64,000 bases of DNA from Chryseobacterium indologenes. Its GTDB lineage: Bacteria; Bacteroidota; Bacteroidia; Flavobacteriales; Weeksellaceae. How positions within the stretch are numbered: the first letter of the stretch is position 1; each line of letters starts with the position of its first letter. Below the pieces are notes generated by a model. The model saw only the letters and a program-made list of their open reading frames with translations, was not told where the DNA came from and did not search any database. The position numbers and the translations under genes are program-made. Below are positions 13,707-15,937 of this stretch, one piece after another. Location of the stretch: the NCBI RefSeq assembly GCF_018362995.1, contig NZ_CP074372.1, positions 2,852,001-2,916,000 of the forward strand, given 5' to 3'.

Positions 13707-13738
13707 AAAAAAAGAGAGAAATTAATCCCTCTCTTTTT
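13707..13738 (-). terminator. Hairpin terminator after the cysteine-rich peptide gene
   Basis: A-rich arm with GAGAG (13707-13718) pairs with CTCTCTTTTT (13729-13738). Read on the minus strand it ends in seven T. It lies about 33 bases after the peptide stop codon and could also serve the plus strand. Confidence 0.65.
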
Positions 13739-13770
13739 CTTAGCCAGATCTAAATTCTATGTAAAAATCA

Positions 13771-13926
13771 TTATACGGCTATACAATATTGTCTTATACC
13801 AGCACAAACCCACCCCGGGCAGCACTCTGTTTGTGGGCTACTACAAAATATCTGTGGATTACACCCTTTAATAGCACCTTGTACAGTTTTCATTTCTACT
13901 CTTGAAAGCTTTTTTGAATTTTTCAT
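13771..13926 (-). CDS. Cysteine-rich 'bacteriocin-like' peptide with knottin cysteine pattern
   Basis: 51 residues when started at the ATG at 13926; the longer frame to 14031 adds an unlikely N-terminus. The first 16 residues (MKNSKKLSRVEMKTVQ) match the leader of chryseobacterial bacteriocin-like peptides, which carry 'LKKLSRxxxKxVxGG'. Here the processing site would be near QGA (16-18) rather than a clean double glycine. The core has six cysteines at 22, 28, 35, 36, 41 and 48, spaced C-X5-C-X6-CC-X4-C-X6-C, the order found in inhibitor-cystine-knot toxins. No maturation or export gene lies beside it. Leader family membership is from memory; the cystine-knot fold is inference. Confidence 0.75.
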   Translation of the reverse strand: MKNSKKLSRVEMKTVQGAIKGCNPQIFCSSPQTECCPGWVCAGIRQYCIAV

Positions 13927-14082
13927 AATTATTTTGTTTAGTATTAATTTCCTACTCTTTAGATTTTCGGATACCTCTTTAATTATTTCCTTTAACGGAG
14001 ATTTAAATATACATATTCTTTTATTAATCAACCAATTAAATGAATAAAAATCTATATTTCAGTGAAAACCCCATATAAAATA

Positions 14083-14363: not shown

Positions 14364-14719
14364 TAAGCCATCCTATTTTTGTTCAAGCCACTTCAGTTAT
14401 TCTATCTGATCAAAATCTAATCCTATTCCGGGATCAACATTTTTCCCACCTTCAATTCAAAATAACTTTTCTGAGTTCATCCGATTTTTTTTATTCCAAG
14501 CACCAACAAAACAGCCTGTTATTTCGGGATTTTCATCTTTACTTTCTTTACATTCCCATCTTAATAGGGTAAAGTCCTTGTAAAAAAACAGGATAAACAC
14601 TTATTCTTAAGCACTTACATAATCCTACATTTGATCTAAGTTTCTCGACCATGAAACACTCACACCAAGGAGGCATCCGAAAATCCTAAAACAGAGTAGG
14701 GATATTTTAAAACAACCAC
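14364..14719. other. Intergenic region before the exported protein gene
   Basis: About 356 bases without a credible gene. A TACATTTG box at 14626-14633 could be the -7 element for the gene at 14720, though no TTG sits at the -33 distance. The rest is AT-rich and I see nothing else in it. Confidence 0.4.
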
Positions 14720-15313
14720 ATGAAAACAAAGACTTTATTTTTAATTGGAGCAATAGTGGGAATTGTTATGATATTTTCCCAGCTAAAACCTCAGGAAATG
14801 TCTTTTTATAAAGAAAAAGGCAATTACATTGTAGACAACAATTACATCCTTAAAGATGTCAAAAAAATTTCTGATGAAGACATAAAGAGTTTATTAAGAC
14901 TACAAAAACTCCATCAGAACAGTTTGGGTACCAATTTTATTATTTACAAAATCAACAGACAGTATATCATCCGCGGATGTTTAATGAAAGCGAACATCGA
15001 CTGGAACAAATACGGAGATCTGAGAGCTAAAGTAGACGGCATCCTGAAAAAATACGGAGCCAAAGAACTTGGAACAGATTATTATGCTATTCAAAATAAT
15101 CAGGTGGCAACTAATGCGGCATTGCTGACCCAGAAAGACATTGCTTCTTTAGGCAAACTTACCATAAGAGGAGCTGAAGAATACACGATCTGTCCGCCAA
15201 CTATGGGAAGAAAGAATCTTACCAATGTGATCATAAGATCTTACAAAGTCAATACAGCTATTGATCCAAGAATCAATGTAAAGCTTAATAATGTATTGGT
15301 TAACTACAAATAA
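14720..15313 (+). CDS. Unknown membrane-anchored or exported protein
   Basis: 197 residues. An N-terminal hydrophobic segment (LFLIGAIVGIVMIFSQL, about 5-21) is a signal or anchor without a lipobox, so the body should be periplasmic. The rest mixes helical and strand-forming stretches and has two cysteines (in IRGCLM and TICPP). I recognise no family. It has its own terminator 6 bases after the stop and stands ahead of a second unknown exported protein. Confidence 0.7.
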   Translation: MKTKTLFLIGAIVGIVMIFSQLKPQEMSFYKEKGNYIVDNNYILKDVKKISDEDIKSLLRLQKLHQNSLGTNFIIYKINRQYIIRGCLMKANIDWNKYGDLRAKVDGILKKYGAKELGTDYYAIQNNQVATNAALLTQKDIASLGKLTIRGAEEYTICPPTMGRKNLTNVIIRSYKVNTAIDPRINVKLNNVLVNYK

Positions 15314-15364: not shown

Positions 15365-15937
15365 ATGAAAAAAAAGCTTCAGTTATCAGGAATCTTTATT
15401 GTTCTTTTGATCGTATTCACCATAGGCATGAAGGGAACATTTGATGGCTACTACGGTTTTTATTATGAAAACAAGAGCTATGATAAGCCTCTGGCGTATG
15501 TGATATCAGAGAATTTTGCCCAATCAAAGCCTATCAATATGCTTACTTCTTATACAGGTTTTGATACAGGATATGGTTTTTATGCACCGAATGTTGCCAG
15601 TGACTTTGTGATGAGCTTTGAACTGAAAGATAAGAACGGAAATATCCTGGAACAAAAGACGATGCCTTATTTCAAAAGTAAGGAGAGCAAAGTAAGATAT
15701 ACAACTGTTTTTAATATGTTTCTGGATAAAATTTCCGACAAAAACACTTATGACCGCAAATATTATCAATACCTGGACATTATCATCAGACAGATTGCAG
15801 AACACGTGATGAAAGAAAATCCAAAAGCATCAAGTGTTACTACAAAACTTTATCTGTACGACTACCCTACTATTGCAGATTTTAAACAGGGAAGAACGAA
15901 TGAAAATCTTATTCTTATTGATGAATTCAAACATTAA
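15365..15937 (+). CDS. Unknown exported protein paired with an HTTM protein
   Basis: 190 residues. The N-terminal helix (LSGIFIVLLIVFTIGM, about 7-22) should anchor it, leaving a periplasmic body rich in Tyr and Phe ('FDGYYGFYYENKSYD', 'GFDTGYGFYAPN'). No cofactor or catalytic motif is visible. Its stop codon lies four bases before the ATG of the HTTM gene, so the two are probably one operon and may work as a pair. The pairing is seen; its meaning is inference. Confidence 0.72.
   Translation: MKKKLQLSGIFIVLLIVFTIGMKGTFDGYYGFYYENKSYDKPLAYVISENFAQSKPINMLTSYTGFDTGYGFYAPNVASDFVMSFELKDKNGNILEQKTMPYFKSKESKVRYTTVFNMFLDKISDKNTYDRKYYQYLDIIIRQIAEHVMKENPKASSVTTKLYLYDYPTIADFKQGRTNENLILIDEFKH

Follow-up and report, generated by a model that had tools for sequence, protein, structure and literature searches.

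The DNA analyzed here (the window) is a 64,000-nucleotide stretch of Chryseobacterium indologenes contig NZ_CP074372.1, taken from a 5.0-Mb genome represented by one contig. On its minus strand, an open reading frame at positions 13771 to 13926 (ATG at 13926, stop codon at 13771 to 13773) encodes a 51-residue peptide whose six cysteines are spaced C-X5-C-X6-CC-X4-C-X6-C. The peptide is a member of the NCBIfam family NF047792, "CCPGW family putative bacteriocin" (96.8 bits against a curated cutoff of 80), and is referred to below as the CCPGW peptide. Its N terminus, residues 1 to 18 (13873 to 13926, minus strand), matches the leader model NF047798 (leader_Chryseo) with 35.5 bits against a cutoff of 23.5, and residues 19 to 51 (13774 to 13872, minus strand) form the core, which holds all six cysteines. 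An initial annotation made from the sequence alone had proposed this reading frame, the cysteine spacing, and a chryseobacterial leader of bacteriocin-like type, all of which were confirmed. The family has already been catalogued and named, with a name that carries no fold, exporter, or regulation. The frame extends 5' to a TTG at 14031, which would give a protein of 86 residues. This start was rejected, since the family begins at the ATG and the extension would cross a conserved RNA in the 5' untranslated region; the ATG at 13926 is thus the likely start.

Among 320 genomes searched across the taxonomic family, 68 carried a CCPGW match above the cutoff, all of them in Chryseobacterium, a group of bacteria from soil. 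A scan of named genomes yielded at least 41 loci, at least 27 of them (L063 to L089) of CCPGW type, and all named relatives among the matches listed were Chryseobacterium. We compared 57 sequences: the window copy, 30 loci fetched from the 68 genomes, and all named loci but L088 (26 of 27). The fetched and named sets share some genomes; the 57 sequences reduce to 44 distinct ones at the DNA level and 42 at the protein level. Conservation of the cysteines, which the initial annotation had singled out for checking among homologs, held throughout, with exactly six in each of the 42 distinct proteins. Their loops follow 5-5-0-4-6 in 31 proteins and 5-6-0-4-6, the form of the window copy, in 11. 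The leader ends in Gly-Ala in 43 of the 44 distinct sequences and in Gly-Ser in one; judged from this pattern, it would be cleaved after Gly-Ala, the presumed C39 site. Pooled pairwise dN/dS (the ratio of nonsynonymous to synonymous substitution rates) was about 0.31 for the leader, about 0.23 for the core, and 0.32 for the core without cysteines. A spurious or decaying reading frame was rejected on the core value. In L088, the leader of the CCPGW copy is out of frame with the core. The genome G142, which is 75% complete, has a partial match (71.8 bits) that may represent this same copy, and a sequencing error is possible.

On one side of the gene lie an O-methyltransferase and an NlpC/P60 protein, and on the other a divergently transcribed 197-residue protein; as the initial annotation stated, no exporter or protease gene adjoins it. 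The same O-methyltransferase adjoins the CCPGW gene in 30/30 fetched and 27/27 named loci. It is also present in 28/28 searched Chryseobacterium genomes without CCPGW, and no MKN-type leader peptide was found within 1.5 kb upstream of it in these genomes, with up to three short cysteine-rich open reading frames checked per locus. A mobile cassette was rejected because of the constant neighbors. Together with the O-methyltransferase retained where CCPGW is missing, they indicate a stably inherited gene that is either present or absent. A terminator-like stem (13707 to 13740, minus strand; 15 pairs, of which only 3 are G-C, followed by a T tail) lies right after the stop codon, and the gene therefore looks monocistronic.

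Predicted fold of the core

The order and spacing of the core cysteines correspond to the consensus of the inhibitor cystine knot (ICK) type. Since six cysteines are kept in all 42 distinct proteins with near-constant loops, this spacing goes beyond chance; when the core was shuffled, a CC-type ICK spacing arose in 0.7% of 5,000 trials. Searched against profiles, the core matched Pfam PF07740 (Toxin_12, a spider ICK family) with 22.3 bits and an E value of 2.1e-4, above the gathering threshold of 21. All 24 CCPGW members scanned matched the same model at E ≤ 0.1, as against a single one of the source genome's 31 leader peptides. An AlphaFold2 model of the core reached a pLDDT of 80.4, with a C-terminal hairpin as in ICK folds, and all 14 Foldseek matches of the predicted core were of knottin type (ICK toxins or inhibitors, by name). 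These Foldseek matches were weak, however, with E values of 1.4 or higher throughout. No significant sequence match for the peptide was found in the PDB.

An exported three-disulfide peptide that is not knotted, whether through different cysteine pairing or a looser hairpin, is possible, if not what we favor. Spacing alone does not fix the pairing of cysteines, and the structure scores are weak for both AlphaFold2 and Foldseek. Against this stand the near-invariant loop lengths of the 42 distinct proteins, the Toxin_12 match in every member scanned, and the uniformly ICK-type Foldseek matches. We conclude that the core is knottin patterned and probably knottin folded, so that "knottin" is a good prediction. 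The interpretation in the initial annotation is partly supported: the cysteine pattern held, the suggested profile search gave a match, the fold is probable, and the knot itself is a prediction.

The closest matches of the core are spider ICK peptides, and Trp39 and Tyr47, invariant in 44/44 distinct CCPGW sequences, are reminiscent of the aromatic residues of hevein-type chitin binders. The peptide might accordingly act on eukaryotes such as fungi, protists, nematodes, or insects, for example by binding glycans or channels as animal and plant knottins do. However, a common scaffold shows no common target, and no chitin-binding family was among the Pfam matches at E ≤ 10; we regard a eukaryotic target as improbable.

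Export locus and sister peptides

Two C39 matches were found in the source genome. One (L105:5813-6373) is a C39 peptidase domain on its own, without an ABC part and with an N terminus resembling that of a lipoprotein. The other is the C39-type exporter that the initial annotation had suggested looking for elsewhere in the genome: a C39-ABC protein at C1:4,093,063-4,095,252, about 1.2 Mb from the CCPGW gene. On one strand, its locus holds first a VKOR-Thioredoxin_4 fusion, then the exporter and one leader peptide, and then an HlyD protein followed by another leader peptide. The VKOR domain is the sole VKOR match in the genome, in which no genome-wide search for DsbB was made.

The exporter was compared across 36 Chryseobacterium genomes, partly picked for few leader peptides. 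An ortholog with at least 86% identity was present in 22 of the 23 genomes in which one or more leader matches at E ≤ 5e-4 occurred, counting G120, in which only residues 96 to 730 align, and in 4 of the 13 without a leader match (Fisher P = 6.6e-5, a value that ignores kinship). All 10 CCPGW-carrying genomes examined had the exporter at 92% identity or more. The combination of a GG/GA-type leader with a C39-ABC exporter, here in the same genome, is one of the features by which class II bacteriocins with a double-glycine leader are recognized. The leader of the CCPGW peptide suggests that it would be processed by the C39-ABC exporter.

The leader model matched 53 peptides of the source genome at E ≤ 10, of which 30 scored above the cutoff. 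An even number of cysteines, from 2 to 8, was found in 28 of these 30, the odd ones being L019 with five and L030 with three (P = 8.7e-7 under the naive null of equal odds for even and odd). Even counts are what disulfide pairing would leave. Enzymatic modification of the cysteines, or metal binding by them, in place of disulfide formation is very unlikely. The genome does encode one MNIO-type enzyme (PF05114), but no leader match above the cutoff is closer to it than about 51 kb, and the exporter locus instead encodes an enzyme that forms disulfides. Three adjoining leader peptides, L007, L015, and L023 (G000:C1:4689241-4689774), have cores of the form C-X5-C-X4-CC-X3-C-X4/5-C and constitute a second group with ICK-type spacing.

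A shared RNA element

A DUF805b RNA (RF02914) lies in the presumed 5' untranslated region of the CCPGW gene, at 13949 to 13980 on the minus strand, 22 nucleotides (nt) before the ATG (43.7 bits; gathering score, 35.6). RF02914 is classed by Rfam as cis-regulatory and is not known to have an assigned function. Further upstream, a box TATATTTA at 14004 to 14011 (minus strand), which resembles the Bacteroidota-type -7 box, contains TATATTT invariantly in 27/27 aligned rows. The complete promoter pattern, TTG-N17-23-TAnnTTT[GA], was found in 14 of these 27 rows versus 4.6% of shuffles, and the TATATTT box stands 32 to 35 nt upstream in the rows with the full pattern. Because of this invariant box upstream, the element is probably transcribed.

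The structure of DUF805b was evaluated in an alignment of 43 elements. Sixteen came from the source genome, including four below the gathering score and leaving out ten weaker matches, and 27 came from 30 loci of the genus, with L135 omitted as a duplicate and L148 and L151 as unreadable. Hairpin P1 was paired in 93.3% of alignment cells. A second helix, P2, in which loop bases 10 to 12 pair with the 3' GGN, was paired in 99.2%, with five pair types (U-A, G-C, C-G, A-U, and U-G) seen at one position and two (C-G and U-A) at another. Its covariation score was 0.508 versus 0.138 in shuffles, none of 500 reaching the observed value, and sliding the P2 partners lowered pairing to 61% or less; 70 of 500 shuffles attained the observed count of pairs with both partners changed. 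Read from this alignment, P1 and P2 together are a predicted H-type pseudoknot of about 34 nt. The structure line of the Rfam model for RF02914, to which the element at CCPGW matches above the gathering score, shows P1 only. Covariance models cannot hold pseudoknots, and the Rfam seed may thus already note P2.

By a strict pattern, DUF805b precedes CCPGW in 28 of the 30 loci fetched and in 26 of the 27 named ones, and each of the three misses (L053, L057, and L087) shows a form that departs from it by one or two bases. Of 12 matches above the gathering score in the source genome, 8 precede leader peptides, namely, seven above-cutoff leader peptides and the first leader peptide of the exporter locus, a leader match of 21.6 bits. 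This RNA, common to both, ties the CCPGW gene to that locus. Its presence before 7 of the 30 above-cutoff leader peptides corresponds to a P value of 2e-13, assuming 4,500 genes. The remaining four precede proteins named by eye as trypsin-like, caspase-like, and tail-collar-like and the 197-residue neighbor gene of CCPGW (14720 to 15313, plus strand), whose own element is at 14667 to 14702 on the plus strand (48.4 bits).

Several observations concern individual DUF805b loci. The elements L106 and L109 (G000:C1:3479593-3480543) lie about 0.9 kb apart, before the trypsin-like and caspase-like proteins. L001, at G000:C1:2916181 and thus 181 bases beyond the end of the window, is a DUF805b-led leader peptide with six cysteines. 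No Pfam match was obtained for the 197-residue protein or for the adjoining 190-residue protein (15365 to 15937, plus strand); in the relatives L136, L142, L144, and L155, the gene corresponding to 14720 to 15313 is likewise preceded by its own DUF805b.

DUF805b was detected in 58 of 59 genomes of the genus. Among 30 genus loci fetched (L132 to L161), 28 were readable; an MKN-type leader peptide follows the element in 17 of them, as judged by eye. Across the phylum, 41 of 198 genomes had the element at E ≤ 1e-7, and 28 of 29 loci (L190 to L218) were read, 26 of them outside the genus. None of these 26 precedes this leader type; two precede other short Gly-Gly peptides. Elsewhere in the phylum, the element stands before diverse, often secreted-looking genes, and in a genome of another family (L194) it precedes a 249-residue protein that by eye resembles microbial rhodopsin. 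From this distribution, DUF805b is an old, general element of 5' untranslated regions that was recruited by Chryseobacterium leader peptides.

Proposed route and comparison with known systems

The gene, its conservation, its leader family, the exporter locus, and the shared RNA element can be joined into one route. Transcription would start from the TATATTT box, and the DUF805b pseudoknot in the mRNA leader would control expression of CCPGW and of many sister peptide genes. The double-glycine-type leader, here ending in Gly-Ala, would direct the precursor to the distant C39-ABC exporter, which would cut the leader and export the core. The VKOR-thioredoxin fusion would oxidize the six cysteines to three disulfides, presumably giving an ICK-like mini-protein of about 33 residues that would leave the cell and most likely antagonize competitors. 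To this whole route, from DUF805b control through C39 export and VKOR oxidation to an ICK-like antagonist, we assign a probability of roughly 50%.

No immunity gene is evident beside the precursor gene, between the O-methyltransferase and the divergent 197-residue protein, an unfamiliar type of immunity being possible. Together with the fixed locus under purifying selection, in place of a mobile cassette, and with the resemblance to an EntF-type induction factor model seen in 4 of the genome's 31 leader peptides, this would suit an intercellular signal or kin regulator and not a weapon. We consider such a role unlikely, as no receptor gene was found beside the CCPGW gene and as six cysteines and many differing sister cores suggest varied targets. 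Nor does a missing immunity gene exclude antagonism, because bacteroidetocins are reported to be able to act against the very strain that makes them, and no known immunity proteins to have been found in related clusters (PMC10352776).

The best reading of the data is hence a co-regulated set of exported, disulfide-oxidized mini-proteins, at least one of them knottin-like, that are probably antagonistic. A bolder version is advanced only tentatively: true ICK mini-proteins made by a dedicated route, in which the C39-ABC exporter and the VKOR-thioredoxin fusion would serve dozens of scattered orphan precursors, many of them switched by the pseudoknot of about 34 nt, itself maybe a riboswitch or translation switch of very small size. 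If proven, a knottin made through the bacterial double-glycine route would mean that scaffolds like those of animal venoms also originate in bacteria, together with a natural route for their production. DUF805b offers a handle: were its trigger found, a group of orphan peptides that otherwise look silent could be studied together. The cysteine parity (28/30 even) and the VKOR-thioredoxin fusion at the exporter locus make a disulfide-forming export route of Bacteroidota directly testable.

In titles and abstracts, our literature search returned nothing on the CCPGW family, a proven Chryseobacterium knottin, or the DUF805b RNA, and a link of CCPGW peptides to a shared pseudoknot RNA and an export-oxidation locus was not described in the literature searched. 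Cystine knots are said to occur in all kingdoms of life in section 14 of PMC13352647, a section that names no bacterial example. The CCPGW peptide resembles the spider ICK toxins of PF07740, such as huwentoxin-I and the hainantoxins, in cysteine order and loop lengths. It differs from them in being bacterial, in carrying a C39-type leader in place of a secretory signal peptide, and in having no known ion-channel action. Bacteroidetocins, the class II bacteriocins of Bacteroidales, are described in PMC10352776 as unmodified and as having a GG leader together with a C39-ABC exporter; the CCPGW peptide likewise has a leader of this type, and its genome encodes such an exporter. Their clusters, however, carry their own exporter in that account, whereas the CCPGW gene is an orphan and encodes six cysteines. 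The bacterial defensin actinomycesin, as presented in PMC8819291, is a six-cysteine, three-disulfide peptide of animal type from bacteria, as is predicted here for CCPGW, but it belongs to the defensin family, is reported from actinobacteria and myxobacteria, and has another leader.
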